Assembly: GCA_017399695.1 (NCBI GenBank)
Contig: JAFQBK010000012.1
Location: 248,001 to 312,000 of the forward strand
DNA from: Clostridia bacterium
Lineage (GTDB): Bacteria > Bacillota > Clostridia > UBA1381 > UBA9506
Length of the DNA: 64,000 nt
Reading direction: 5' to 3'
Position 1 is the first letter of the stretch; each line of letters starts with the position of its first letter. Shown here in pieces: positions 28,938-42,911 of the stretch. The notes below the pieces were generated by a model. That model saw only the letters and a list, made by a program, of their open reading frames with translations, had not been told where the DNA came from and did not search any database. A program made the position numbers and the translations under genes.

Positions 28938-28967
28938 AAAAGAGGGTCTATATAGACCCTCTTTTTT
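28936..28967. terminator. Perfect palindromic bidirectional terminator
   Basis: AAAAAAGAGGGTCTA continues directly into its own inverse TAGACCCTCTTTTTT across TA. It ends the plus-strand mtaB operon and, on the minus strand, the whole phage-derived cluster (holin stop at 28966), so it is the right-hand functional border of that cluster. Confidence 0.95.
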
Positions 28968-29373
28968 ATATTTCCTGCTCTTCTCCCTGTTCTTTTAAGC
29001 AGTCCAACACCTGTATCAATTTGCTCGGCAGCGGCACACCGATATTCCCCGCATTTTCCAAAATGGAAATGCCCTCATTGGCAATATAAAAACCAATCAC
29101 AAAAGAACGAATCTCAGGTGCTCCTACCGTTTGTCCGACGAGATGTGCCACAGCGATAACAGCTAATATCATCACCTTTTTTAATAGCCCGTGAAACCCG
29201 ACACGGCTGGACACGGTCTTTTTTAATACCGCAGACCAAACACCGCTTAAGTAATCTAACAGCATCAATATCAAAAGCACCGAAAGCACGGTGTCAAGCC
29301 CACCGAACAAAGCCGTCAGCATTGCGCAAATTGCACCTCCTGCCATTTTTACCCATATCATCAGCGTATCCAT
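28966..29373 (-). CDS. Phage holin family protein
   Basis: A 135-residue protein with three hydrophobic segments, including LFGGLDTVLSVLLILMLLDYLSGVWSAVLKK, the pattern of the toxin-secretion/phage-lysis holin family, and a charged tail (KLIQVLDCLKEQGEEQEI). It should open the membrane so that the amidase encoded just upstream reaches the wall. It is the last gene of the phage-derived cluster. An intact lysis pair fits a particle that is released by lysis. Confidence 0.9.
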   Translation of the reverse strand: MDTLMIWVKMAGGAICAMLTALFGGLDTVLSVLLILMLLDYLSGVWSAVLKKTVSSRVGFHGLLKKVMILAVIAVAHLVGQTVGAPEIRSFVIGFYIANEGISILENAGNIGVPLPSKLIQVLDCLKEQGEEQEI

Positions 29374-29384
29374 CTCTTTACTCC

Positions 29385-30095
29385 TTATGCATTTCTTTCT
29401 CTAATATACTGAAGAGTTTTGCGCGCCAGCCAATAGAGTCTCCCGTTTGGGTTTTTGCGCATTTCCTCTTCCATACCCTCGGAGTCAGTCACTAAGCCTC
29501 GGTGCGCATATTCCCATACAATATCGTGGATTTCAGATAACTCTTCCGTTTTTTTCGGCTTTACTCCTGTCATTCCCTCGAAAATTGCATCGGCAAATTT
29601 CTCCGGCTCTGTCTTTAACAGCCAGGCATCATTTTCATCATCAATGAAAGCCGTTTCCACCAAAAATGCATCACATTTGGTCAGGCGCAGAACGCCCAAA
29701 TCCGGGCGTTTCTTTACCCCTCGGGAGACGAGACCAAGATTTTTAACCAGCGCATTTTGCACCTTGTTTGCCATCTCTGACGCGCCCCCCAGCTTTGAAT
29801 ACACCAGAGTCTCTGCCCCTTTTCCTCCGCCGGCATTACAATGAATGGAGACAAACAAATCTGCACCCCACTCATTTGCCATTTTTGCCCGCAGGTTGAT
29901 GCTTTCTCTCGATGTCTTTCCTACATTGTCCTCCAGTTTCTCGCGACTCATTTTGACCGTATGACCCGCATCTTTCAAAAGAGCACACAAACGGGAAGCA
30001 ATCGCAAAGCTCACCATTTCTTCCCTGAGGCCAAACCCGCTTGCGCCTGTGCCCAAGCCGGAATAGTTATGTCCCGCATCAAGAAATATTTTCAT
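29385..30095 (-). CDS. N-acetylmuramoyl-L-alanine amidase (endolysin)
   Basis: A 236-residue amidase-3 family zinc enzyme cutting the bond between MurNAc and L-Ala. Zinc ligands His9 (DAGHN), Glu25 (LREEM) and His85 (SIHCNAGGG) and catalytic Glu147 (VETAF) are all present. The last 60 residues (IHDIVWEYAHRGLVTDSEG and LYWLARKTLQYI) look like a small wall-binding or linker domain. It has no signal peptide, so it depends on the adjacent holin. Its start overlaps the XkdX-like gene by 17 bases. Confidence 0.93.
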   Translation of the reverse strand: MKIFLDAGHNYSGLGTGASGFGLREEMVSFAIASRLCALLKDAGHTVKMSREKLEDNVGKTSRESINLRAKMANEWGADLFVSIHCNAGGGKGAETLVYSKLGGASEMANKVQNALVKNLGLVSRGVKKRPDLGVLRLTKCDAFLVETAFIDDENDAWLLKTEPEKFADAIFEGMTGVKPKKTEELSEIHDIVWEYAHRGLVTDSEGMEEEMRKNPNGRLYWLARKTLQYIRERNA

Positions 30096-30276
30096 TTTCC
30101 GTCTCCTCTTTCTCCTCCGGCTCGATGGCGGTCAAGCCGTCGATGACCGCCAAATCCTCGACGGTCAGCACCTCTTTTTCAAACCAGCCGAGAGCGTAGC
30201 GATTGACCTTGTACGCCGCTTCATTTTTCGCCATTTCCTTTAAGGTTTTCATTACAAAAGCTTTTAAGTCAAACAT
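30079..30276 (-). CDS. Small XkdX-like tail-region protein
   Basis: A 65-residue protein (FDLKAFVMKTLKEMAKNEAAYKVNRYALGWFEKEVLTVEDL) located between the BppU-like and amidase genes, overlapping both. The position, size and the pattern of a short basic/aromatic middle and acidic end resemble XkdX-type small proteins of PBSX-like prophages. A function is not known. Confidence 0.6.
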   Translation of the reverse strand: MFDLKAFVMKTLKEMAKNEAAYKVNRYALGWFEKEVLTVEDLAVIDGLTAIEPEEKEETENENIS

Positions 30277-31685
30277 CAGATTGTACCTCCCATCGCAATC
30301 ATTGCATTTTTCAGTTCTTCATACGCGCTTTTAATATTTCGATGATACCGCATCCCTACAGGCGAATTTTCATTGGTTTTTACCGTCATATTCCCATTTG
30401 CTGAAAGCGCAAGCAAGAGTTTTCCCGCATCGGTATCGGTAATGTCAATTGTCTTTGGATGCCCTGTTTTAAAATACATCGTGAACGGAACGTCGCTTCC
30501 TACATTGTAATTTGTGACCCAATTCTTAAATGCTGCTACTCTCTCACCCTCTGTCGAACTTGATGTTACACCAAGTACATCATTGGAAATTTTACACAAA
30601 ATATGTCCTATATAACCACCAGCATACCCGAGCGCAATATCCGCCGGATATCCGTATGCATCAATTCCTGTCATTAGTTGCAGCGAACAAACCGCGCAGC
30701 GTGCAACGTTATAGCCGCCAGTCGTGCCATACGCCGAAAGCGCCCCATTTTCATTCGTTGGAGCAAGTCTTATTTCAGTATCTGATTGCCCCATCGTCCC
30801 TGCAGAGATATGTCGCATATCGCTCGTTATCTTTAGTTTGACAATGTTTTGAACCAGCTTAACTTTGCCGTCCTCCACCCTGATCTCATCTCTTGCCAGC
30901 CACTCGCCCGTTTCGGGATGACGGATGCCGTATAAGGGTGCGTCTAGCGGAATTTCAATCGTTGTTTCGCCACTCTCTCCATCCGTCACCATTACGGTCA
31001 CCGAACCGCTTTCACCGACACCCGCAATCGTTGCCGGATTCTCAATACTTTTCTCCGTTACCCCCGCGGGCAAGGTTTCTGTACAAGCACCGTAAATGCT
31101 CAAAGCAAGGGGCGTATCCTTTACTGCATCTGCAACCACAAGTTCGGTATCACTTTCAGTTTCATCGATAAGCGCAGGAGCATATAAGGAGTTAAAAGTC
31201 GCACGCTCTTTTTCAAAAAGCTCTGCGTGTGCGCCCGCATCTGTTTTGTGTGCAGAAACTGCCGCCTGCGCCAATAGACTCTGCGCCGAAAGTTTTGCTA
31301 AAATCGGCTCATTGTTAGAAGATGCTAAGCCTTTTTCTCCAAAGCCCTCACGGACGGAGGCGAAAATGACGCAGATGGTTACAAAAGTGCCGTCCGTTTT
31401 CGAAAGCGCAACCTCAAGCTCTAAGCTACCACCCACGCTATAGGCATTATCCGCCGCAACCCAGTAACACTCCTCGCCGCGAATCACGCCCGAATCAATC
31501 ACAACCGCACCGTCTGCGCGTTTTGCCTTGACACTAAGTGCACATCCCTCGGTCGAAATTTTCTCTTTCCCATTATAAAAAGAGAAATCCAAACGGTACC
31601 CACGCGCGTCGCCCGCAGTAAATACGATATTGCTATAAAGCTCTCGTTCGCCCGTAACATCAATTTTCAATGTGTATCGTATCAT
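30276..31685 (-). CDS. Baseplate protein with BppU-like N-terminal domain
   Basis: A 469-residue structural protein. The first 115 residues match the N-terminal beta domain of BppU-type baseplate upper proteins (AGDARGYRLDFSFYNGKE, VKAKRADGAVVIDSG, GSLELEVALSKTDG). A helical linker follows (LAKLSAQSLLAQAAVSAHKT), then a less recognised C-terminal part that could contact the host surface. It probably sits at the tail tip and helps choose the recipient or prey cell. It abuts the 31696 gene. Confidence 0.75.
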   Translation of the reverse strand: MIRYTLKIDVTGERELYSNIVFTAGDARGYRLDFSFYNGKEKISTEGCALSVKAKRADGAVVIDSGVIRGEECYWVAADNAYSVGGSLELEVALSKTDGTFVTICVIFASVREGFGEKGLASSNNEPILAKLSAQSLLAQAAVSAHKTDAGAHAELFEKERATFNSLYAPALIDETESDTELVVADAVKDTPLALSIYGACTETLPAGVTEKSIENPATIAGVGESGSVTVMVTDGESGETTIEIPLDAPLYGIRHPETGEWLARDEIRVEDGKVKLVQNIVKLKITSDMRHISAGTMGQSDTEIRLAPTNENGALSAYGTTGGYNVARCAVCSLQLMTGIDAYGYPADIALGYAGGYIGHILCKISNDVLGVTSSSTEGERVAAFKNWVTNYNVGSDVPFTMYFKTGHPKTIDITDTDAGKLLLALSANGNMTVKTNENSPVGMRYHRNIKSAYEELKNAMIAMGGTI

Positions 31686-31695
31686 ATCTTCCCTC

Positions 31696-32559
31696 CTAGC
31701 AAATGACTAACTGAAACGGAAATCGTTCCGGCAGATAGTCTTTCATGATGTTCCAGGAAAGATGTCCGATGAGTTGTGTTCCGTTTTGGGTAAAGGTGAG
31801 CTTTGCCCAATACGAATGATAGTCTCCGCCGATGCTTAAGCAATCGATATTTGCCTCATAGAACGCACGATAGCCCACATTATAGGTGCAGAAATAACTG
31901 CCGTCTTCCAGGGAGTAAACACCTATATGACCGTACCGTTCCTGAAGCGGACCGTTCACGCTGAACACACGGCTGTAATTGTTGTTTCCCAGTTCAATCG
32001 TAAACTCCCTTTCGCCGCTGGTCTCCTCTTCTCCCACACGAAAGTCGTAATCGAGTACCAGCGTTCTTCCGACGTTGCTTTGATACCCAGGTACCTTTCC
32101 CGTCGCATAAACGCGCTTATCAACAACTGTACCGTCTGCTTCAATTTCTGCCAAAAGGACAAAATCTCCCGTCGGCGCACTCGTGGTGCAGGCAGGATAC
32201 GAACTGTTCTGCTCATTTAAGTCCTGCTTTAAGTACACATAATTCTTTTCACCAGCCACATACGAAAGCAGTTCCGCCTCCGTGATGCGGATTCTGCTGC
32301 CATCAGCAAAAAACGCGCCGCCCGGTGCGATGGCAATAATGCCCTCCTCCTGCTTGGTAACACGCAGTGTTTCCACCGTCTCCGGCACGACACCGCCCGT
32401 ATAAAGCGTATTGACAATGCCGTTTAGTGCGCTCGCGTTATATGCAATGCCGTCAGAAAACACATCCTCGACCCCGCTGCTTACAAGACTCTTTACAAGA
32501 CTGTTTAAGTCCTCTGCCCCGTAAACGCCATTATCGCAAAAGCTATATTCGTAACTCAT
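31696..32559 (-). CDS. Tail/baseplate protein of unknown fold
   Basis: A 287-residue protein in the tail-tip region. Its first part (DLNSLVKSLVSSGVEDVF, then LNGIVNTLYTGGVVP) and a middle beta-rich stretch (GIIAIAPGGAFFADGSRIRITEAE) resemble proteins located after the Tal gene in clostridial siphophages. The C-terminal half is likely a beta-sandwich. The name is given by position only. It overlaps the start of the tail-tip gene by 17 bases. Confidence 0.55.
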   Translation of the reverse strand: MSYEYSFCDNGVYGAEDLNSLVKSLVSSGVEDVFSDGIAYNASALNGIVNTLYTGGVVPETVETLRVTKQEEGIIAIAPGGAFFADGSRIRITEAELLSYVAGEKNYVYLKQDLNEQNSSYPACTTSAPTGDFVLLAEIEADGTVVDKRVYATGKVPGYQSNVGRTLVLDYDFRVGEEETSGEREFTIELGNNNYSRVFSVNGPLQERYGHIGVYSLEDGSYFCTYNVGYRAFYEANIDCLSIGGDYHSYWAKLTFTQNGTQLIGHLSWNIMKDYLPERFPFQLVIC

Positions 32560-33499
32560 CTTCTACCTCCTCCATCATTGGTTGTTCGCCGCATAAGCCT
32601 TCCTCATACCATAAATGAATCCCTATAATCCTCATTTTCGCTGTTTCTAATAAGGCACCTTTGGCAATCTTTACCGTTACCACATCACCCAATTCATAGT
32701 CGCTTCGATACTGAAGTCCGCTCATTTTCGCCGTTAGTCCGACGCCTTTTTCGCTTTTTGAAAGCTCGGAAAGCGCCTCCTCATCCGTTTGAGCGTTAAG
32801 TATCGATTCCCAGCGATAAATCCCCGTCTTTTCCCCATTATCGACGAACCTCCACTCCGATTCTCCGTTTACTTTCTCCTCAAACCAGCCGGAATTAGAT
32901 AAGTCCAAGAAATCAAAGCTCGCACTTGTATCATAGGCGTTATGTTCATCCTCGGATACCGTAAGCAAGCGCTCTTTTCCTTTTTTGGTTTGGTATCTCC
33001 AGCATTTGCCCAAGACATCAAATATCAAATCATGTCCCAAATGAACGCCCGATAGTGCATTCGTCAAAACCTCGGAAAGCGGCTTGTAGATATCCTGTGA
33101 AATCGTAATTTCCTCCGCTATCTCACCAGACTCTTCACACACGAAATTTTCCACATCAGAAAACGCTGTCTGCACCCAGCCTCTGGCAAGCTCTTCTGCC
33201 TTGCCCGTACAGCTTTCAAAGGGGGCAACGAGCCGCTTTTGAAGTAGCCAGTTGACTGTGCGCCCAAAGACCGCAAAATTTTTACCGGCGCAAAATCCGG
33301 TAATCAGCGCTTGGCGCTCGCCCTGCACCACAACCAAATAGGGTTCACTGGTAAGCAAGGCTACCACATCAGAATCATAAGAAAAATAAGCTTCAAACTG
33401 CCCGATGCCGTTATAGTACATCTGCCAGTTGACGCTTTCCGCCAAAGGCTCAATATGCCTTAAGTTGAACTCATAATCATAAAATCTCAAATCCTCCAT
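32543..33499 (-). CDS. Tail-tip protein, Gp37-like (siphovirus tail-associated)
   Basis: A 318-residue protein. The N-terminus (MEDLRFYDYEFNLRHIEPLAESVNW) and the sequence KPLSEVLTNALS with a later YELGDVVTVKI match tail-tip (Tal/gp37-like) proteins that form the baseplate hub of siphophages. ATG 33499 overlaps the TGA of the distal tail gene, with AGAGGCGG upstream; the longer frame to 33538 is not used. No peptidase or glycosidase domain is visible at the C-terminus, so it is a short hub form. Confidence 0.75.
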   Translation of the reverse strand: MEDLRFYDYEFNLRHIEPLAESVNWQMYYNGIGQFEAYFSYDSDVVALLTSEPYLVVVQGERQALITGFCAGKNFAVFGRTVNWLLQKRLVAPFESCTGKAEELARGWVQTAFSDVENFVCEESGEIAEEITISQDIYKPLSEVLTNALSGVHLGHDLIFDVLGKCWRYQTKKGKERLLTVSEDEHNAYDTSASFDFLDLSNSGWFEEKVNGESEWRFVDNGEKTGIYRWESILNAQTDEEALSELSKSEKGVGLTAKMSGLQYRSDYELGDVVTVKIAKGALLETAKMRIIGIHLWYEEGLCGEQPMMEEVEDELRI

Positions 33500-34329
33500 C
33501 AGCACACCGCCTCTAAGTACCGGTTTACAAAACGGCAAAGCACGTTGATTCCGTCCGCTTTTTGCGAGGTAACGGAAATGAAGTTAGCGCCCCTTTGTAG
33601 GTGAAAGCGACTGAGAAAACTGTCCGGCGACAAAACAGACAACAAATTTTCGCCCTTTTGGTTGTAAATCTTCCGTTTTGCCACGTCAATCGTCACGCAG
33701 TCCCCGGCATCTGCCGGAATGGATAGCGCAAGTTTTTCCCCCGTCTGTTCATTTTGGATGGTAACTTCCCAAAGTTCTTCCTCATCGCCCATAAAATAAA
33801 TTTCAAATACAGGCTCCGCTTCTACATCCCCACGGTTTATGACCGTAGCGGATGACGTGCGTGAGGAAAATCGACAAGGTAAAACAAAGGGTGTTTTGAG
33901 TTCATTGGTGCGTAGAAACAGCGCAACTTTACTCTCATCTTTTTCCTCAAAATACGGTGAATCGCAAGAAAACTGCAAGGCAAAACGGTAATACTGACCA
34001 TACCGTTTTCCCTGCTCAAAGCTGATGCAGCGCGCATAAACCTTTCTGGTCTTCCCATCTCCGTAAATCATAAGCCAGCCCGGTGCATCAAGAATACGAA
34101 TGGTTTTGGCAAGCATTCCCTTCCCGCAAATATCTCCGGCAACGGTAATCACTCTTGCCTCGCGTGTCTCGCTGAGCGTTTTCTGTCCTGGAGTCTCCAC
34201 ATAGACAGCTGTCTCAAAGCTTTTGGGTGGCATCGCAAGACCTGAAATCTCGGTGATACAAAGCAACTCTTTTCCGCCACCTGAAAAACAGAGTTTTCCT
34301 CGCTCATTTTGAAATATCATCTGCGTCAT
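33499..34329 (-). CDS. Distal tail protein (Dit-like)
   Basis: A 276-residue protein in the classical place between tape measure and tail-tip genes. The N-terminal part (LCITEISGLAMPPKSFETAVY and the later REARVITVAGDICG) and the middle FALQFSCDSPYFEE are typical of phage distal tail proteins that form a hexamer at the end of the tail tube. It starts in an ATGA overlap with the preceding gene. Confidence 0.8.
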   Translation of the reverse strand: MTQMIFQNERGKLCFSGGGKELLCITEISGLAMPPKSFETAVYVETPGQKTLSETREARVITVAGDICGKGMLAKTIRILDAPGWLMIYGDGKTRKVYARCISFEQGKRYGQYYRFALQFSCDSPYFEEKDESKVALFLRTNELKTPFVLPCRFSSRTSSATVINRGDVEAEPVFEIYFMGDEEELWEVTIQNEQTGEKLALSIPADAGDCVTIDVAKRKIYNQKGENLLSVLSPDSFLSRFHLQRGANFISVTSQKADGINVLCRFVNRYLEAVC

Positions 34330-35540
34330 CCGTTCCTCATCCTTTCCAGCTCGCTGTGATTGCGTGCACTCTCCAGCTGACGCGCAACTGTTTCTGCACT
34401 GCTTTTGATAATATAAGTAATGGCTGAATGATTCGATACCACCTGCGGCTCGCCCCCCGATTCAGACGCCTGTGAGGGCTCAAACGAGAAACTGTAAGAT
34501 GCCATGAGTTCCCGCACCTTGTCCATCTGCCGCTCAAGCTCTAAAACAAACGCCGAGCCAAAATTTTGTGCCGACACACTGCCGCTGACAAAAAAGCCCT
34601 CCGGAATAGAAAGTCCGGCTTCTCTAAGTTTTTCCTCCATATATTGCTTGGTTTTATCAACACTGTCCGAAAACTGGTCTAAGTACAGCTTCGAAGAAAT
34701 TTCTCCGGCAAGCGCCTGCTTTTGGTTCCATTTCCCAAGATAGTCCAAAAATTTATCCGTTCCCGCAGTTGCCAAAAGCTCTGCCAGCTTTGTCCCGTCC
34801 TCCACCGACAAATCGGCCAGTTCCGAAAAGAACGCATAGACATTATCACTGGAAAATCCATTTTCAAACATTCGGGTTTTCACCGCAGACAAAAGCTCGG
34901 AATACCTCTTAAGCTCATTGATTTGCTGACCTAAATCCGCCAAATCCTGATATACGACATTTTTGCCGTTCGGTCCCATTCCGACAAAGGTGATGTTTTT
35001 GGCAAGCACCCCGAAGTCCTTGAGCTTTTCTTCCATTTTGTCCTGCGCACGCACAGTGCTTCCAATGGAATCATCGGCATACTCTGCAATATCACGATAA
35101 ATATCACGAATATCACTTTTCAGCGATTCTAATATTTCTTTTTCCTTTTCAGCCGCCTGTTTTAAGGAATCAAGGTACTCCTCATCCGATAGCTTTTTCA
35201 GCCGGAGTGCTTCTTTCTGCCTGATAAGCTGCGCATTGGTCGCATTTTTTGCCGAAGCAAGTCTTTTTTGATATTCCTTCCGTCTGTTTGCCTCTTCTCG
35301 TTGCGCATTTTCCGCATCCAGTCGCTGTTTTTCCTGCAAATACAGTGCCTGCGCACCGAGCATTCCCTCATAAAATGAATCAATGTCGCCACTTGCTTTT
35401 TGATGGGCAGACGACAACTTGTCCACCAATTCTTCGGCTATTTTTGATATACTTTCTTCCTGTTTTTTGACATGGCCAGCGAAATTATCAATACTCTCTT
35501 TTGACCATATTTCCTTTCCCTCGACCGAAGAACGCCCCAT
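34326..35540 (-). CDS. Short tape-measure candidate
   Basis: A 404-residue, strongly helical and charged protein. About residues 70-150 form a coiled-coil run rich in Lys, Glu, Arg and Gln (QEKQRLDAENAQREEANRRK). The gene lies between the Gp15-type gene and the distal tail gene, where the tape measure always is. Most siphophage tape measures are 600-2000 residues; this one is short and lacks an obvious hydrophobic segment. If about 1.5 angstrom per residue applies, the tail would be near 60 nm. This function is inferred from position. Confidence 0.65.
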   Translation of the reverse strand: MGRSSVEGKEIWSKESIDNFAGHVKKQEESISKIAEELVDKLSSAHQKASGDIDSFYEGMLGAQALYLQEKQRLDAENAQREEANRRKEYQKRLASAKNATNAQLIRQKEALRLKKLSDEEYLDSLKQAAEKEKEILESLKSDIRDIYRDIAEYADDSIGSTVRAQDKMEEKLKDFGVLAKNITFVGMGPNGKNVVYQDLADLGQQINELKRYSELLSAVKTRMFENGFSSDNVYAFFSELADLSVEDGTKLAELLATAGTDKFLDYLGKWNQKQALAGEISSKLYLDQFSDSVDKTKQYMEEKLREAGLSIPEGFFVSGSVSAQNFGSAFVLELERQMDKVRELMASYSFSFEPSQASESGGEPQVVSNHSAITYIIKSSAETVARQLESARNHSELERMRNG

Positions 35541-35555: not shown

Positions 35556-36116
35556 CTATATCAGTCCGTCCAACACCATCGCCGGCTGGACAGCTTCTTC
35601 CATTTCATCCTGCGGCAGGCGATACAGCCACTTCATGCGCCGATAATAGTTTTTCTCGCTTCCGCTTACGCGACTTAAATCAAGCGCACGAATCCGTATC
35701 ACCTGCATCAGTTTGGACTTTGCGGAAAGAGAGTGGAAAAGCGCTAAAAACTTCCACCAATGAAGATTTTCTGTCGTAAGGTCAATATGATATTGCGCAA
35801 GAAACGCCGCATATATCATATCCGCATCCTCTGTAAAATCGTAAATCCGCTTCCTTACTTTTTCTTCCGTCGGCAGCGACTTGCGTTTTGGATGCCCCGC
35901 ATAAAAATCAAGTAAAAGAGCTAGCGCAGATTCTAAACTGTCCGGCAGCGTTTCTGCATAACAAAGAACAAGCATCCGAACCGCCTTCTCCTGCCAGGGA
36001 AGAGCCGAAAACAAAATCTGTTCAAACTCCATCCACACACGAAAATCCGTACGAATCGGATACTCTTTCCCGTCACACTCCACCGCCTCCGGCACATCTT
36101 GCACAAGACTTAACAT
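35556..36116 (-). CDS. Phage Gp15-family protein (tail assembly)
   Basis: A 186-residue protein with the features of the Bacteriophage Gp15 family: an N-terminal IRTDFRVWMEFEQIL and a middle TTENLHWWKFLALFHSLSAKSKLMQVIRIRALDL. These proteins are located before the tape measure and are thought to be tail assembly chaperones. No frameshift site leading into a second frame is visible here. The stop is 15 bases before the tape-measure start. Confidence 0.82.
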   Translation of the reverse strand: MLSLVQDVPEAVECDGKEYPIRTDFRVWMEFEQILFSALPWQEKAVRMLVLCYAETLPDSLESALALLLDFYAGHPKRKSLPTEEKVRKRIYDFTEDADMIYAAFLAQYHIDLTTENLHWWKFLALFHSLSAKSKLMQVIRIRALDLSRVSGSEKNYYRRMKWLYRLPQDEMEEAVQPAMVLDGLI

Positions 36117-36140: not shown

Positions 36141-36623
36141 TTACTCCGTAAATGTCAGGGTATGCCAGTTGTCCTCTGTGCTCGCATAGCCGGACACCTT
36201 ATCCCCCGAGGTCTTAAAGCTTCCGTTGTAGATATACGCCTCGGCACCTGCGCCCTCGCTGTCCGGAATGACCGCAAAATCGCGCTTTACGGCAGAGAAT
36301 TTACCGTCTGCCTCCTCGGTTAAATCGACCAGTACAATCGAGCGCACGGCTTCCGTTCCGGTGAGCTCACCGTCGGTAATGCCCACCAGGTCCTGATGCA
36401 CGGGGTTGCCGCTGAATCGGTCAAACGCATAAGAAATGGAGGGGCTGTAACCCACAATATCATTTCTTTCATGTTCTTCATCAATATACTGACGCTTGTA
36501 TTCTTTCGGGTTTGCCGTTTTGGAGAATTCCGTAAAACCACTCATGCGGTGGTAGCTTACGCCATCTTCTGTCGGCACGCCGTAAAATGCCAGTTTCTGA
36601 CATCTTTTTACTAACTGCTCCAT
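36141..36623 (-). CDS. Major tail tube protein
   Basis: A 160-residue protein with typical tail-tube features: KLAFYGVPTEDGVSYHRMSGFTEFSKTANPKEYKRQYIDE at the N-terminus and IVGYSPSISYAFDRF, as in tail tube proteins of Listeria A118-like and clostridial siphophages. It should polymerise into the inner tube. There is no sheath gene beside it, which supports a non-contractile tail. Confidence 0.82.
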   Translation of the reverse strand: MEQLVKRCQKLAFYGVPTEDGVSYHRMSGFTEFSKTANPKEYKRQYIDEEHERNDIVGYSPSISYAFDRFSGNPVHQDLVGITDGELTGTEAVRSIVLVDLTEEADGKFSAVKRDFAVIPDSEGAGAEAYIYNGSFKTSGDKVSGYASTEDNWHTLTFTE

Positions 36624-36626
36624 CTG

Positions 36627-37046
36627 TTATTCCTCCTTCAAATAAATCAAGCTGCATTCCATCTGATATTTTGCCGTATCCCCGGCGTGGTCTTTCTTTC
36701 TACCTGCCGAAATCGCGCGAATGCTTTGGGGTGATAAGCCCGCCTCTAGCTTTGGCAATTCTCCCTTCGCGGTTTTTTCCTCGAGCCATAGGGCAAGCTT
36801 TTCATAAAACTCTGCGATAGCGAGCTGTTCATCCACGCTTTTTGCAATCCACTCACGCGACGCAAATACAAAGTCAAACCGCATGAGTTTTCCGCCATCA
36901 GCGTAGCTGTGAACCAGCTCCTCGCCTCCGGTTCTTATGATTGCATACTCCCGAGGCTCGGAACCTAAATAATCCACATTCAGACGCCCGCTGGATAGAA
37001 GTGGGCAGGAACACATAAACTCCCTGATTGCTTCTGTGATACTCAT
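36627..37046 (-). CDS. Minor capsid/tail terminator-like protein
   Basis: A 139-residue protein located between head closure and tail tube genes, the usual place of the tail terminator. The sequence (SITEAIREFMCSCPLLSSGRLNVDYLG, and DFVFASREWIAKSVDEQLAIAEFYEKLALWLEE) resembles the minor capsid proteins of A118-like phages. ATG 37046 has GGAGGTG seven bases upstream, so the longer frame to 37088 that overlaps the previous gene is not used. Confidence 0.68.
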   Translation of the reverse strand: MSITEAIREFMCSCPLLSSGRLNVDYLGSEPREYAIIRTGGEELVHSYADGGKLMRFDFVFASREWIAKSVDEQLAIAEFYEKLALWLEEKTAKGELPKLEAGLSPQSIRAISAGRKKDHAGDTAKYQMECSLIYLKEE

Positions 37047-37060
37047 ACTGCCACACCTCC

Positions 37061-37393
37061 CTACCTGCAAATAATTTTGTAATGCCACATCCTCTTGCTA
37101 CCTCTCCTGTTGTCCGAAAACCCGTTGACGATTAAGCTATCCACCGACGGTACAGGCTCGTCCGTCAGCCCGAGTACCACACGGTCCCCAATCGCAAGCA
37201 CCAGAGCCTCACTTTGCGGCACACGAATGATACATTCCCGGGACCGCCACGGCCCATCCTGGCTGTGGCGGCGTTCCTCTTCATAGGTCTTATAAATAGA
37301 AACATTTTTGATGATTTGCCGCTTGAAAACTTCCTTTCGGGTCTCGGCATCAATTTCTGCATGATACACCGTAATATCGCCGTTCGTTATCAT
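37061..37393 (-). CDS. Head-closure/minor capsid protein
   Basis: A 110-residue protein (TVYHAEIDAETRKEVFKRQI, ALVLAIGDRVVLGL and VNGFSDNRRGSKRMWHYKI) in the connector region, with size and beta-rich character of head-closure or minor capsid proteins of A118-like phages. ATG overlaps the end of the preceding connector gene by four bases (ATGA type). Confidence 0.68.
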   Translation of the reverse strand: MITNGDITVYHAEIDAETRKEVFKRQIIKNVSIYKTYEEERRHSQDGPWRSRECIIRVPQSEALVLAIGDRVVLGLTDEPVPSVDSLIVNGFSDNRRGSKRMWHYKIICR

Positions 37394-37728
37394 ACGCCAA
37401 TCCCCCTGTAGACCAAAGAGGACGGGAGATACCGAACCGCGATGCGGTACATCTCTGCCTCGCTCGGTTCGAGATAATCCACGCGGTAGCCGTCATTGGT
37501 TTCTGAGCGAATCCCCTGCCTTGCGGCCTGGTCCCAGTAGAGCTCGCTGACGGCACATTCTGCGTGCTTTACCTCGTCTGTCAATTCAGATAGGGTCTCA
37601 ATTTTTCCATTGGTCAGCCAATCCAGATAGCATTTTGCCTTGATGGCCGCCGATTGATAATCCTCCCGGGTAGGAATCAGCCTGCCGCAAAACTCATCCT
37701 GATAATAATTAAAATCTGTATACGGCAT
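37390..37728 (-). CDS. Head-tail connector protein
   Basis: A 112-residue helical protein directly after the major capsid gene, as for Gp6-like head-tail adaptors: AIKAKCYLDWLTNGKIETLSELTDEVKHAECAVSELYW. The ATG at 37728 is preceded by GGGAGGAG with five bases of spacing; an in-frame ATG at 37743 lies upstream of this site and is not used. Confidence 0.72.
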   Translation of the reverse strand: MPYTDFNYYQDEFCGRLIPTREDYQSAAIKAKCYLDWLTNGKIETLSELTDEVKHAECAVSELYWDQAARQGIRSETNDGYRVDYLEPSEAEMYRIAVRYLPSSLVYRGIGV

Positions 37729-37742
37729 AAAAACTCCTCCCA

Positions 37743-38615
37743 TTATGCCTTGGTACTTACATAAATACCTTTGTTCTTATTTTCAAATACACGGTTTAAG
37801 CCGTAAATACGATAACCAAACTTATAAGCATCTGCATCCGGATTTGCATCCGGCAGAATAACCTTCGGTGCCTGATGCTTGGTAATCTGAAGTACGCTCG
37901 GCTTGTGAACAATCATAAAATTAATGTCCTCGGCATCTGCAGATTTTGCAAAGCCGCCGGCAATGTCCTCTGCGGTTTTGCCGGTAAGCAGGTCAACAGA
38001 GGTAACAAATCTTGCCTGCGGTACGGTAATAATCGCTGCAAAACGCTTTAAGATTTCCTTCGACTTTGTCATATCAACGCCGTCAATTAAGTCTAAAAGC
38101 GTTGGAGTGATAAACAGATAGCGTTCTTCCTCGCCGACCTCCGCCTCGTCCATCACGGCTTTTGCCTGACGCAGCGCCTCTAAAACTTCAGTGCCGTCCG
38201 TAAAGGTTTCTGCTTCATCGCTGCCAATGCCTGCTTCGGATGCATACTGTGCAAAACGAACAGCATCCAGCTCCGGAACCACTTTCGTACGGATAAATTC
38301 ACCGGAGAGCTTGCCGAATGCTACGCCTGCAGTCTCTTCATTATCCATCGCATCAACAGAGAACATTCTGCCACGCTCATAGTTAAACTGAACCGTTTCG
38401 TGCGTCAGCTTCACATCGCCGGTGGCATAGCCGCTGTTGCGGTCATATTCGCCCAGACCGGAAAGCTCCATTTTCGGAATAATCAGCTCATTGGCATTTG
38501 CGCCCTGCTGGACCAAAAGACCGTCACTTTCCAAAACTGCAGATTTTGCAGACTGCTGATAAACCTCGTCTAAAAGAGTCGTATAATTTTTAAATAACTG
38601 AATGGAATTTGCCAT
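37743..38615 (-). CDS. Major capsid protein
   Basis: A 290-residue HK97-fold-type coat protein. Typical runs are the helical N-terminus (QLFKNYTTLLDEVYQQSAKSAVL), the early hairpin (LIIPKMELSGLGEYDRNSGY), the spine helix region around EFIRTKVVPELDAVRFAQYA and the closing RIYGLNRVFENKNKGIYV. There is no delta domain or protease site at the N-terminus, consistent with the absence of a protease gene. It follows the scaffold gene by 27 bases. Confidence 0.85.
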   Translation of the reverse strand: MANSIQLFKNYTTLLDEVYQQSAKSAVLESDGLLVQQGANANELIIPKMELSGLGEYDRNSGYATGDVKLTHETVQFNYERGRMFSVDAMDNEETAGVAFGKLSGEFIRTKVVPELDAVRFAQYASEAGIGSDEAETFTDGTEVLEALRQAKAVMDEAEVGEEERYLFITPTLLDLIDGVDMTKSKEILKRFAAIITVPQARFVTSVDLLTGKTAEDIAGGFAKSADAEDINFMIVHKPSVLQITKHQAPKVILPDANPDADAYKFGYRIYGLNRVFENKNKGIYVSTKA

Positions 38616-38642: not shown

Positions 38643-39176
38643 TTAAATTCCCATTGCCTGACGAATCGCACCGGATTCGTCCGTCTTCTGCATACCGCTG
38701 ACACTTTGCGAAAAACTCGGCGCCGGCGTTTCCGCCTGAAACAGATAGCCGTACTTTTCCTTTAAGCCAAAGAGCTGTTCTTTCGCCCCCATGACCTCGC
38801 CCTCGGAAATAGTTACCTTTTCCCAATCCATCAAAGCATCCAAAAGTTCAGCGTTTTTGACCCCGTTTTCACGGTAAAGACGCTCGGTTTCCTTTTGAAT
38901 CAGGGATTGATTCTCTTGTCTTTGAAACTCCGCTTCCGCCTGTTCCGCCTTTTCTTTCCATGCCGAAAGCTCATTTTTCAAGCCCTCAATATCCAGTGCC
39001 TCATATGCAGAAAGCATTTCCTCTTTTTGTTTGATTTCCCCTCTTAACCGTTCAAGCTCCAGCCGTTCATTCTGATTTGCGCTTTTCGTTCGCTCAATAT
39101 CTCTGCCGTTCATGGCAAGTATTCTGTCTGCCTGCTCCCGGTTAAGCCCCAGTTGCATCAATTCTTCTGTCTTCAT
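38643..39176 (-). CDS. Scaffold protein (phage GP20-like)
   Basis: A 177-residue, coiled-coil protein before the capsid gene, as expected for a scaffold. The N-terminus KTEELMQLGLNREQADRIL and the helical middle (LELERLRGEIKQKEEML) are like phage minor structural GP20 proteins. ATG 39176 has GGGAGGAG eight bases upstream, so the longer frame from 39245 is not used. Scaffolds of this type leave the shell without proteolysis in some phages. Confidence 0.8.
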   Translation of the reverse strand: MKTEELMQLGLNREQADRILAMNGRDIERTKSANQNERLELERLRGEIKQKEEMLSAYEALDIEGLKNELSAWKEKAEQAEAEFQRQENQSLIQKETERLYRENGVKNAELLDALMDWEKVTISEGEVMGAKEQLFGLKEKYGYLFQAETPAPSFSQSVSGMQKTDESGAIRQAMGI

Positions 39177-39287
39177 TCGATACACTCCTCCCATAACTTG
39201 CGCGAAATACGCGCTGTGACTACGCTTTTTAGGTGGTCGCATCACCTATCCCCTGCTGATTAGGCCCGCAGACCGGCCCATATAGAA

Positions 39288-40673
39288 TCAGTCAGCCGCC
39301 GAACCCTCACCGATGCGAAAGACACGCTCGGAAAGGGCTGCTTTTGCCTGTTCCTCACTTTCACCGAAATACCACATCCGAAATTCCCACGGCAGCATAA
39401 TCCCGTCGGATACCAACTGCTTTTTCTCTTCAAATTCCGCTTTGCGGTCCGCAATCATGCTGTCGTCAAACTCAAACGAAATATCGTACTCGCCCTCCGG
39501 CGCAAGACCATAGAGACTGCACAGAGTATCCATCGCGGAAACAAGCTCGGAAAGCGCAATCCAAAGCGCTTTCTGCACATCGCAAATCATCGAATAGCTT
39601 CTCTGCTTGGACGCCCTGACCTCTTCTGCCGTCTTGTCCACATTGTCCACATCCGATAGTGTGCCATAAGCAAGCCCGCAGTTGAACTCAATCTTGCGTA
39701 AGATTGAGTTCAGTCCGCGCAAAATATGCTCCTCACGAAGCGTCGGTGTCCAGTCAGAGAATAAGTCGTCTCCACCCTGCTCAATACCGAGCAAACGGTA
39801 AAGACGCTTGTCAGGAATCACCGCCTGCCCGTTTTTATCGAGACGAAATGCCATATCCGAAACATATAGCGCACGCTCCCCACTTTCAAATTCCCATAAA
39901 AGGCGCGAGTACTGCTTGTCCGCCTCGCAAATCAACTCACCGGCTCTGGAATAAACCGAAACCCCGAGGGGCGAGCTATCATCAACTGTGTTTGCATACG
40001 GCACCTTGAAATATCCGATGAGTAGTGTGGATACATTTTCAATCAATACCTGCGGAGATAAATGAGCCCAGGAGGAAACCTCAGAAAGCGGAATCTCCAT
40101 CCCCAAAACGCCCTCTGTGTGACTTACAAACGCGCGGTTGGTGATATGATATCCCTCGGCATCAATGAGATGTTTCTCGAGTCGCGTATAAATCTTGTCA
40201 CCGGACTTTTCCTGTGCCACAAAAATTGCGCCCGTCATCTTTCCCGAGCCGTCGAACGCCGTGGGGAAAAAGCAATCCGCCTGCACCATATCGACAGAAA
40301 TCCTCTTACCATCGACGTACGGCTTAAATACGAGCCCGCCTTTCGCGCATCCGTATTCAATGTATCTGCGAAGCTTATCCAATACCGGCTGATACATCTT
40401 ATGCAAGAATTCCGCCCTCGCACTACCTGTGATTTCAGAACGCATTTCCACCGTCGTGAGCCTCGCCACCTCCGCCGCAATCGACGCCGGAAGATTCAGC
40501 GTTTTGACACGCTCGCTCTTCCACGGCGGCACATCATCATACATATCCGCCCACAACTTCTGCGCCTGTCGCATTTTGGAAGATACCACTCCCTGCTCCC
40601 CCAGTGTCTGTAATGCGTTTTTCCCTTTGCTCATTTGCACCATCCTTTTCATCCATTTTCTGAATTCAAACAT
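39288..40673 (-). CDS. Portal protein
   Basis: A 461-residue portal of the SPP1/A118-like type: the N-terminus has MYDDVPPWKSERVKTLNLPASIAAEVARL, the wing and stem region carries DSSPLGVSVYSRAGELICEADKQYSRLLWEFESGERALYV, and the C-terminal part has the clip/crown-like helices (KTAEEVRASKQRSYSMICDVQKAL). It makes the dodecameric DNA entry ring at one vertex. It follows the terminase gene by 29 bases. No Mu-F/SPP1-gp7-like minor capsid gene follows it, unlike in most relatives. Confidence 0.85.
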   Translation of the reverse strand: MFEFRKWMKRMVQMSKGKNALQTLGEQGVVSSKMRQAQKLWADMYDDVPPWKSERVKTLNLPASIAAEVARLTTVEMRSEITGSARAEFLHKMYQPVLDKLRRYIEYGCAKGGLVFKPYVDGKRISVDMVQADCFFPTAFDGSGKMTGAIFVAQEKSGDKIYTRLEKHLIDAEGYHITNRAFVSHTEGVLGMEIPLSEVSSWAHLSPQVLIENVSTLLIGYFKVPYANTVDDSSPLGVSVYSRAGELICEADKQYSRLLWEFESGERALYVSDMAFRLDKNGQAVIPDKRLYRLLGIEQGGDDLFSDWTPTLREEHILRGLNSILRKIEFNCGLAYGTLSDVDNVDKTAEEVRASKQRSYSMICDVQKALWIALSELVSAMDTLCSLYGLAPEGEYDISFEFDDSMIADRKAEFEEKKQLVSDGIMLPWEFRMWYFGESEEQAKAALSERVFRIGEGSAAD

Positions 40674-40702: not shown

Positions 40703-41899
40703 TCAGCGAAACCGCCGCCGCAGAATGGTATTACAAAAATAACGAACATCATCCATCGCGTGGTCATTGGCTTTCACCACGGTATCGTCCTCCGCTTCCT
40801 CATCCCACACATAAGAACGGAATTCTGATATGCATCCCCGGCAAGTATCGGAAAATAAGAGCTTGCCTTGCGCAAGATAAGAAAAAACCAAGCGAATCCC
40901 GTCTAAAACCTTGTTGTCTGCTTTTTTCACCGCAAAACGCCCTGCTCGTTTAATGCAGGCAATAAAGCTTGCAGCTGAAGGGTCAATGATGACCTGACGA
41001 ATCGGTAAATCTCCGGCGAGCCTTTCTAGCGCATCGTAATATTCCTCATCGGTCATCTGTCGTCGTTCTCTTCGTCCGTCATAATAAAACTCCCGAAGCC
41101 GTACCGCACGTTCCTTTTCCCAATCCACCTGCCATAAGCCCATCGAGCATGGATTTAATGTTCCATAATCGATGGAAATGTAGTAATCCCCACCGTCAGG
41201 CGGAAATTCGCTGATAATGTGCCGACTCGGTTCGAAATTCGGATATACCAAGCCTTCTGCATTTACCCATGCACCACAGATGAATCGCTCATAAAAAACG
41301 CCGGTATATTCCTTTTTGAGATTCTCAACAAAATCAGGAGACAAAAAGGAGTTGTCATCAATCAAGAATTTCTCCACCCGCAAATCGAGTTCATCTTTTC
41401 GGTCCAGATACTTTTTCTTCAACCAATGCTCCGGCGAGTCGGGGTTCGTCGTACCAATGAGCTTCGCCCCACGCTTAGATAGCCTCGATAAGAGCATTGC
41501 AAAAAAGCCTTGCGGAAAGAGCGTAATCTCATCGCAGTATGCGCCGAAAAGCGTCATGCCCCTGATTTTCTCCTCCGACCGCACATCAGATGCACCCTCC
41601 AAATAAATCTTTCTGCCAAAAAGTCGCGCCTCTTTGCTTGATAAGCTATATGTAAAATACTTAGAACCAGCCAGTGCCTCCAGTAAGGATAAACAATTTC
41701 GCTTTAAAGATTCCATTGTTTTTCCGCACATCATATACTGCCCGTCCCGCGGCATCTGTGAAATCCAAAGCGCCCAAAGAACTAAACTAATGAAGGTTTT
41801 CCCCGACCGTACTGAGCCCTCTAAAATGTTGAGTCGCCCCATCCCTCCGCAAAGCGAGGAAAGCAAAAAGCGACACTGCTTTTCTGAAAGCCATTGCAT
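40703..41899 (-). CDS. Terminase large subunit, PBSX type
   Basis: A 398-residue packaging motor. Walker A is GSVRSGKT (28-35), Walker B ends in YCDEIT (Asp123, Glu124), and the coupling segment is LIGTTNPDSPEHWL. The C-terminal RNase-H-like nuclease shows Asp244 (SIDYG), Asp306 (IIDPSA) and Asp383/384 (HAMDDVRYF). The N-terminal sequence NILEGSVRSGKT is like the PBSX family, and PBSX itself packages random host DNA. The active sites look intact. It starts directly after the TerS-like gene. Confidence 0.92.
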   Translation of the reverse strand: MQWLSEKQCRFLLSSLCGGMGRLNILEGSVRSGKTFISLVLWALWISQMPRDGQYMMCGKTMESLKRNCLSLLEALAGSKYFTYSLSSKEARLFGRKIYLEGASDVRSEEKIRGMTLFGAYCDEITLFPQGFFAMLLSRLSKRGAKLIGTTNPDSPEHWLKKKYLDRKDELDLRVEKFLIDDNSFLSPDFVENLKKEYTGVFYERFICGAWVNAEGLVYPNFEPSRHIISEFPPDGGDYYISIDYGTLNPCSMGLWQVDWEKERAVRLREFYYDGRRERRQMTDEEYYDALERLAGDLPIRQVIIDPSAASFIACIKRAGRFAVKKADNKVLDGIRLVFSYLAQGKLLFSDTCRGCISEFRSYVWDEEAEDDTVVKANDHAMDDVRYFCNTILRRRFR

Positions 41900-42400
41900 T
41901 CACTCCGGTTCCAAGGGAATTTCACTCTCTAAATGAGCCTCATCCCCCACAACGTAAGTATTTCTATTGCTAAATATGTTATTATCCAGGCTTTCGTCTC
42001 TATTTTCATTTACCTTTCCTCCACATATCCATATTTTTTCTTTTTCATTTATTTTACAGAGCGCTTTCACCATTTCCTCCAAAGGAATCTGCGGTTCACC
42101 ACTCTCTTCTTCCAGCAAGGCTTTGACCTCTTTAAAAGCGGCAACATCCCCTTTTTCAATTGCTTTATCTAGGACCGACTGCGCCAGAAGAAGCGCGTGA
42201 TTAACGTCTTTTCCCTGATACCCGTTTGCTAACAATTCCTCTTTCTTTGCATCCTCTGCCGGCATTTTCAAAAGCTCAGCCATGTAGTCCCCCAAAGAGC
42301 GTTCATTTTTCTTTATATTTCTTTTCTTCTTCACCACTTTAGTTTTAGTTTCGAATTTATTTTTCACTTCTTTCACCACTTTTGAGTTTTTTGCCGCCAT
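41900..42400 (-). CDS. Terminase small subunit-like protein
   Basis: A 166-residue protein in the place of TerS. It begins with a very basic stretch (about 1-32), then has a helical part with the pattern NHALLLAQSVLDKAIEKGDVAAFKEVKALL, which resembles small terminase-like proteins of clostridial phages (KAL-x-GD-x-KAFE type). The acidic end (EAHLESEIPLEPE) is likely disordered. DNA recognition of a pac site is not assured. It is the first intact gene behind the SOS-type promoter, with GAGGTG before its ATG. Confidence 0.68.
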   Translation of the reverse strand: MAAKNSKVVKEVKNKFETKTKVVKKKRNIKKNERSLGDYMAELLKMPAEDAKKEELLANGYQGKDVNHALLLAQSVLDKAIEKGDVAAFKEVKALLEEESGEPQIPLEEMVKALCKINEKEKIWICGGKVNENRDESLDNNIFSNRNTYVVGDEAHLESEIPLEPE

Positions 42401-42609: not shown

Positions 42610-42636
42610 GTCACAGAATACGTCACATATGTCACA
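42610..42636. repeat. Triple GTCACA repeat in the leader
   Basis: Plus-strand GTCACA occurs at 42610-42615, 42622-42627 and 42631-42636. The last overlaps the near-palindrome at 42634-42647. It may be part of a regulator binding region. Confidence 0.45.
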
Positions 42637-42647
42637 CGTATCGTGTG
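42634..42647. promoter_or_regulatory. Operator-like near-palindrome, leader copy
   Basis: ACACGTATCGTGTG on plus (ACACG, TAT, CGTGT form an inverted repeat). The same 14-mer, with one change, lies inverted in the promoter spacer at 42727-42740, 93 bases away centre to centre. A pair of such sites could be bound by a repressor dimer with DNA looping. No repressor gene is present in the cluster. Confidence 0.55.
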
Positions 42648-42694: not shown

Positions 42695-42708
42695 AGAACA
42701 TATGTTCT
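42695..42708. promoter_or_regulatory. LexA (SOS) box
   Basis: A perfect palindrome AGAACATATGTTCT, containing the gram-positive LexA consensus GAAC-N4-GTTC. It lies about 6-19 bases downstream of the expected start of transcription from the promoter at 42720-42748, where bound LexA would block the polymerase. Cleavage of LexA after DNA damage should then switch on the phage-derived cluster. Confidence 0.88.
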
Positions 42709-42719
42709 ATTGTGTTTGT

Positions 42720-42748
42720 ATTATACCACACAATACGTGTTTTGTCAA
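42720..42748 (-). promoter_or_regulatory. Perfect sigma-A promoter of the phage-derived cluster
   Basis: On the minus strand TTGACA (42748-42743), a 17-base spacer and TATAAT (42725-42720), both hexamers perfect. It faces the TerS-like gene. A LexA box overlaps the early transcribed region. It is the only strong promoter seen before the 13.4-kb run of closely spaced or overlapping genes, which suggests one transcript. Confidence 0.92.
42727..42740. promoter_or_regulatory. Operator-like near-palindrome, promoter-spacer copy
   Basis: CACACAATACGTGT on plus lies wholly within the 17-base spacer between -10 and -35. It is the inverse of the leader copy at 42634-42647 with 13 of 14 bases the same. 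A protein bound here would directly cover the promoter. Confidence 0.55.
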
Positions 42749-42857: not shown

Positions 42858-42896
42858 AAAAAAAGAACAGCGGCACGAATGCCTCTGCTCTTTTTT
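42858..42896 (-). terminator. Terminator at the end of the ribosomal operon
   Basis: AAAAAAGAACAGCGGCA and TGCCTCTGCTCTTTTTT form a 17-bp stem with two mismatches across CGAA. For minus-strand transcripts it follows the rplQ stop codon by 15 bases and has a T run. It is symmetrical enough to work both ways. Confidence 0.88.
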
Positions 42897-42911
42897 GTAT
42901 CTACTCTTAAA

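Follow-up and report, generated by a model that had tools for sequence, protein, structure and literature searches.

The window, by which we mean the whole 64,000-nucleotide stretch of Clostridia bacterium DNA analysed here, comes from the genome of a gut bacterium, designated G000, that was compared with those of its congeners, the four species of the genus being G000 to G003. On the minus strand of the window lies a 13.4-kb operon of 17 intact genes that run from 42400 to 28966, nearly abut one another (gaps of at most 42 nt) and share one promoter. The features of the operon and its promoter region are as follows.

42858 to 42900, minus strand: terminator hairpin of the rplQ operon (-19.8 kcal/mol, z -5.8)
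42720 to 42748, minus strand: sigma-A promoter of the particle operon, TTGACA-17-TATAAT, 12/12 match to consensus, with TG before the -10
42728 to 42740, minus strand: predicted second operator, copy 1, ACACGTATTGTGT, in the -35/-10 spacer; same position in G001 and G002
42695 to 42708, minus strand: predicted LexA operator, AGAACATATGTTCT (weight matrix from host SOS boxes, and conservation)
42634 to 42646, minus strand: predicted second operator, copy 2, ACACGATACGTGT, in the leader; kept in all four species
41900 to 42400, minus strand: probable small terminase subunit (position before terL; alignment)
40703 to 41899, minus strand: large terminase subunit (phrog_2, 1.7e-48)
39288 to 40673, minus strand: portal protein (phrog_533, 5.7e-121)
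38643 to 39245, minus strand: head scaffolding protein (phrog_194)
37743 to 38615, minus strand: major capsid protein (phrog_422, 9.8e-73)
36141 to 37743, minus strand: four ORFs for head-tail connectors, tail completion and probable tail tube (phrog_541, 3366, 3266, 3099)
35556 to 36116, minus strand: phage Gp15-like protein (PF06854, 2.8e-40; phrog_706)
34326 to 35540, minus strand: short putative tape measure, 404 aa (position between Gp15 and Dit)
32543 to 34329, minus strand: distal tail and tail-lysin-like proteins (phrog_33, phrog_538)
30079 to 32559, minus strand: tail-tip or receptor-binding candidates of 287, 469 and 65 aa (position)
29385 to 30095, minus strand: endolysin, an amidase (PF01520; phrog_435)
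28966 to 29373, minus strand: holin, the last gene of the operon (PF05105; phrog_199)

None of the 17 genes encodes an integrase, a replication protein, a repressor or an activator, and a minor-head gene is absent from the main operon. The probable small terminase has no Pfam or PHROG match and no HTH or other recognisable DNA-binding domain; its AlphaFold model, with a mean pLDDT of 52, was too poor to use. The putative tape measure likewise lacks a PHROG match, and its orthologues are 403-459 aa long. In G001 the corresponding frame is split into two ORFs (L043:5770-6981), through either an assembly error or a real lesion.

Read on the minus strand from 42748 to 42695, the promoter region is TTGACA-AAACACGTATTGTGTGG-TATAAT-ACAAACACAAT-AGAACATATGTTCT, with the -35 hexamer at 42748-42743, a 17-nt spacer, the -10 hexamer at 42725-42720, and 11 nt between TATAAT and the LexA box. 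Strand, coordinates, promoter and palindrome are all exactly as an earlier note on this DNA had them, and its placing of the box at about +6 to +19 also agrees with ours if transcription starts 7 nt past the -10. The strong hairpin of the rplQ operon stands between this promoter and rplQ. The cluster promoters of G001 and G002 have the same hexamers at the same 17-nt spacing, and the consensus promoter is absent from the G003 cluster.

The bare 12-mer GAACN4GTTC is uninformative. It occurs once in the window against 0.81 expected, and the pattern searches on which all genome-wide motif statements here are based found 13 copies in the genome against 29 of the reversed control. A chance palindrome in an AT-rich leader, for which this expectation of about one 12-mer per 64 kb would speak, is nevertheless hardly credible, because the box gains its significance from the company it keeps and from its conservation. 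The strict 14-mer AGAACN4GTTCT is present in only 2-4 copies per genome (control 0-2, four genomes), and the non-coding copies precede recA (G000 and G003), dinB (G000 to G002) and the particle cluster (G000 to G003); the remaining copies lie within genes. All four species have lexA, the G000 product aligns over its length with solved LexA repressors, and every lexA promoter contains three near-boxes of the LexA type. Occurrence of the 14-mer ahead of the orthologous cluster in 4/4 species refutes the chance reading, and in the alignment of the four cluster promoters (mean column identity 57%) the box is the most conserved element, invariant except for one central base. Scored with a weight matrix built from the recA, dinB and lexA boxes only and applied to the 1.2 kb upstream of terL, the particle-operon box reaches 20.7 bits (p=0.003, the floor set by 300 shuffles).

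The earlier note had proposed that the host SOS response directly controls the cluster, a claim that a missing lexA gene or a box not conserved in relatives would have undone. With lexA present and the box found in 4/4 relatives that have the cluster, direct control of the particle operon by host LexA is well supported by the sequence.

The same matrix was used to ask how far LexA sites accompany packaging genes elsewhere. In this genus 4/4 clusters had a site (p at the 0.003 floor); so did 8/12 related compact clusters that lack a tape measure, 1/9 compact short-tape-measure clusters from other genera, and 3/27 conventional prophages, which equals chance. A Fisher test of 8/12 against 3/27 gives p=0.0009, although the clusters without a tape measure are related to one another, so this value overstates their independence. 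No second, independent sample backs the 8/12 figure, because terminase searches at class and order level yielded for the most part conventional prophages, in which boxes were few. Some clusters carry arrays of up to five boxes, mainly of the GAACN4GTTT type, and SOS operators of C. difficile include this type (PMC4234289). The idea that a LexA box marks short-tail compact clusters in general was rejected on the 1/9 count.

Several individual loci from this survey deserve mention. Seven Clostridia clusters without a tape measure (L075, L080, L086, L089, L092, L104 and L276) have an architecture like that of the Faecalibacterium gene transfer agent (GTA) FpGTA and one to five LexA-like boxes upstream of their terminase genes. 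In a Candidatus Alloruminococcus cluster (L093:4690-5623) a perfect AGAACATATGTTCT comes first, next a small ArpU/sigma-like ORF, and after it the terminase genes. At a shared hisZ-like site, two species of a sister genus (L046 and L047) have a short-tail cluster with no clear LexA box, though lexA is present; this cluster is apparently kept vertically and under different control.

Alignment of the cluster promoters exposed a second inverted repeat, ACACG-N3-YGTGT. Its two copies flank the LexA box, one in the -35/-10 spacer and one in the leader, and their centres are 94 bp apart in G000 and 95 bp apart in both G001 and G002, about nine helical turns. G003 has the leader copy alone. Over the four genomes the motif occurs 16 times and its reversed control is equally frequent. 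Eleven of the 16 copies are in promoters, seven at the cluster, three at the gene for a CI-like repressor and one at a Mu-F gene; of the remaining five, four fall within genes and one in an unassigned stretch. Chance was considered as an explanation for the copies away from the cluster, and was rejected when a search for S24 proteins placed several of them at repressor promoters.

The repressor in question is a protein of about 205 aa with HTH_3 and Peptidase_S24 domains (PF01381 and PF00717; phrog_4), best matched by a phage transcriptional repressor family. In three of the four species (G000, G001 and G003) its gene has the repeat within the 17-nt spacer of its own promoter. The orthologues in these species are 75-79% identical to the G000 protein and share invariant Cys-Ala-Gly (CAG), Gly-Asp-Ser-Met (GDSM) and Val-Val-Lys-Lys (VVKK) motifs. 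Since the Ala-Gly site and the Ser and Lys positions expected of self-cleaving repressors are kept, the protein is probably competent for autocleavage. The gene is unlinked to the operon: in G000, where it occupies C11:123910-124515, some 166 kb separate it from the operon promoter, and in G001 some 37 kb. No copy was found in G002, a fragmentary genome that is 77% complete. At each of the three loci (L365:7853-8518, L366:2377-3043 and L367:466-1126) it stands alone among host genes and not in a prophage. From the shared motif and its autoregulatory position only, we infer that this protein is the partner of the second operator and represses its own gene, which would make ACACGNNNYGTGT DNA a putative target of the CI-like repressor.

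These results bear on the earlier note's statement that no phage repressor is needed. That statement is probably wrong: a conserved pair of further operator sites lies across that promoter, and the CI-like repressor gene, unlinked and autoregulated, has the same operator at its own promoter. Control by LexA alone, with the repeats not acting as operators, would fit the standing of the LexA box as the most conserved promoter element and its retention in G003, where the spacer repeat is missing and the promoter differs. We judge it quite unlikely, as in three species the repeats keep constant positions, and they are found again in the promoter spacers of both the CI-like repressor and a second LexA-boxed phage gene. 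The repeat pair might instead be a pac site recognised by the small terminase, whose gene lies just downstream of it; this is very improbable given that the small terminase lacks a recognisable DNA-binding domain and that the same motif occupies the promoter spacer of the unlinked repressor gene. An RNA hairpin was also considered for the motif and, like the pac site, rejected, one copy being in the untranscribed -35/-10 spacer and the motif recurring at the unlinked repressor promoter.

The second LexA-boxed phage gene is in G002 (contig C237), where a TTGACT-17-TATAAT promoter with the operator in its spacer is followed by CGAACAAATGTTCT, giving spacer operator plus LexA box. This dual promoter stands ahead of a Mu-F gene and a small downstream ORF (L368:3106-4872). 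The Mu-F protein has 469 aa, matches Phage_Mu_F (PF04233; minor head, phrog_115) and has a long C-terminal part that matches no Pfam family. The gene looks like an unlinked, co-regulated part of the particle. It is also possible that it forms, with the small ORF, a pair of Mu-F polymorphic toxin and immunity protein; such toxins have been described in temperate phages (PMC5576092).

The chromosomal setting of the operon differs among the species. It adjoins rplQ in G000, occupies a common site beside comF in G001 and G002, and in G003 lies next to other genes at the edge of a contig. The sites thus differ in G000, in G001/G002 and probably in G003, and the operon has therefore relocated or been acquired on more than one occasion. 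When the close G001/G002 pair is set aside, the terL, portal and capsid genes of the genus are 67-82% identical, comparable to the host genes mtaB and dinB at 69-73%. Tail genes diverge faster than the large terminase, portal and capsid, and the 287-aa tail-tip candidate is the fastest-evolving among the genes compared. Between G001 and G002 all compared cluster genes have dN/dS of 0.03-0.26, and their dS of 0.5-1.7 overlaps in range with that of host genes (0.3-0.8). The cluster in this pair is, on these values, under strong purifying selection and has diverged vertically together with its hosts.

An ordinary defective or cryptic prophage that retains an old LexA site, with no benefit to the host, would account for the absence of integrase and replication genes, for the different chromosomal sites of G000 and G001/G002, and for the split tape-measure frame of G001. 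We regard this as unlikely: every gene is intact in G000 and all four species keep the operon, box and promoter are conserved, and purifying selection is strong at the site shared by G001 and G002. A live phage or phage satellite, using host LexA as its lysogeny repressor and drawing replication and integration functions from elsewhere or from a helper, has a precedent in phage GIL01 and would agree with relocation between species and with the existence of capsid homologues among true phages, for example Eggerthella phage PMBT5 (55.7%). It is improbable in the face of the vertical co-divergence in G001/G002 and of the database comparisons. Capsids within the genus are 81-82% identical, whereas none closer than 62% was found in IMG/VR; the short-tape-measure gene order was seen in 0/80 IMG/VR loci by an automatic scan able to type 41 of them; and neither GenBank phages nor IMG/VR yielded a free phage with the same cluster.

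The reading we prefer, to which we assign a probability of about 0.72, is a conserved GTA-like particle operon under a two-repressor SOS switch formed by LexA and the chromosomal CI-like repressor. In the undamaged cell LexA would sit at about +6 to +19 and block the start region, with the CI-like repressor bound at the -35/-10 spacer and at the site 94 bp downstream, possibly looping the DNA over the LexA site. Upon DNA damage activated RecA would promote self-cleavage of LexA and, probably, of the CI-like repressor as well, the latter because its Ala-Gly site and its Ser and Lys positions are kept. Only when both repressors were lost would the operon be transcribed, and lysis would then release headed particles, which may carry randomly packaged host DNA.

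That such particles would be a domesticated, GTA-like product is the most likely case because integrase, replication and repressor genes are lacking and purifying selection acts at a site shared by two species. The earlier note had reached domestication by another route, holding direct host control to be what one expects of a domesticated system. Such control is not diagnostic: the true phage GIL01 also uses host LexA (PMC6182141), and other compact clusters with the same gene order are mostly without a box (1/9). Domestication rests better on gene content, selection and the one shared site than on the LexA box.

We also put forward, tentatively and as a possibility we consider doubtful in its entirety, a wider proposal: that GTA-like particles of gut Clostridia are governed by a damage-coincidence device in which LexA acts with an unlinked, host-kept, self-cleaving and looping CI-like repressor, and in which the same dual operator recruits the distant Mu-F minor-head and putative toxin gene into the particle, so that the whole would be a scattered, co-regulated, domesticated delivery system.

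If the two-repressor switch is real, particle release would be set off directly by DNA-damaging drugs that are common in medicine and farming, and the second repressor would offer a simple genetic handle on particle production in a cultured relative. The combination of a LexA box and a partner operator beside a compact packaging operon could serve as a signature by which further systems of this kind, and the parts of them encoded elsewhere, might be recognised.

Separately, all of the following are known: phage functions under LexA control, GTAs repressed by LexA-like proteins, a LexA site predicted in silico at a GTA cluster, and GTA-like packaging in gut Clostridia. We found no precedent in the open-licence literature searched for a conserved dual operator on a compact particle operon combined with an unlinked CI-like partner. 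GTAs are defined by the packaging of random host DNA, including at best part of their own genes (PMC9662315), and the available part of the FpGTA report describes GTA-like packaging as common in gut Clostridia (PMC12946183). As presented there, FpGTA resembles the operon described here in being a compact Clostridia system with terminase, portal, scaffold and capsid genes, a small terminase without an obvious DNA-binding domain, lysis and tail-tip genes, and no replication genes. It differs in being podovirus-like and divided between two unlinked operons, whereas here there is one operon with a short tail, and in that particles and roughly 9 kb of packaged DNA were shown, compared with genes alone in our case; the available part of that report (PMC12946183) gives no promoter control or means of switching on.

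For the Rhodobacterales GTAs, the portions of the two reports available to us (PMC6363796, PMC6473078) record that LexA affects GTA production, as we propose here, and an in silico LexA site is reported for the Dinoroseobacter GTA cluster (PMC6473078). In R. capsulatus, unlike the direct control predicted here, the effect of LexA is indirect, via CckA, and these portions (PMC6363796, PMC6473078) describe no CI-like partner operator. RogA of the Caulobacter GTA is, like our candidate, a LexA/CI-like (HTH plus S24) repressor of GTA genes, but it targets the gafYZ activators and lacks the catalytic residues (PMC9632790), whereas our candidate keeps these residues and has its sites alongside a LexA box at the very promoter of the particle operon. 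CTX phage has LexA and a phage repressor at one switch region, but is filamentous, and its LexA activates rstR from a site overlapping the rstR promoter (PMC3121763). In GIL01 of Bacillus thuringiensis the lysogeny repressor is host LexA, whose site lies just downstream of a phage promoter, and a second factor is required at the same promoter (PMC6182141). GIL01, however, is a tectivirus that replicates itself, and the second factor there, gp7, binds LexA and not DNA (PMC6182141), whereas the second factor here is apparently a DNA-binding CI-like repressor encoded elsewhere in the chromosome.
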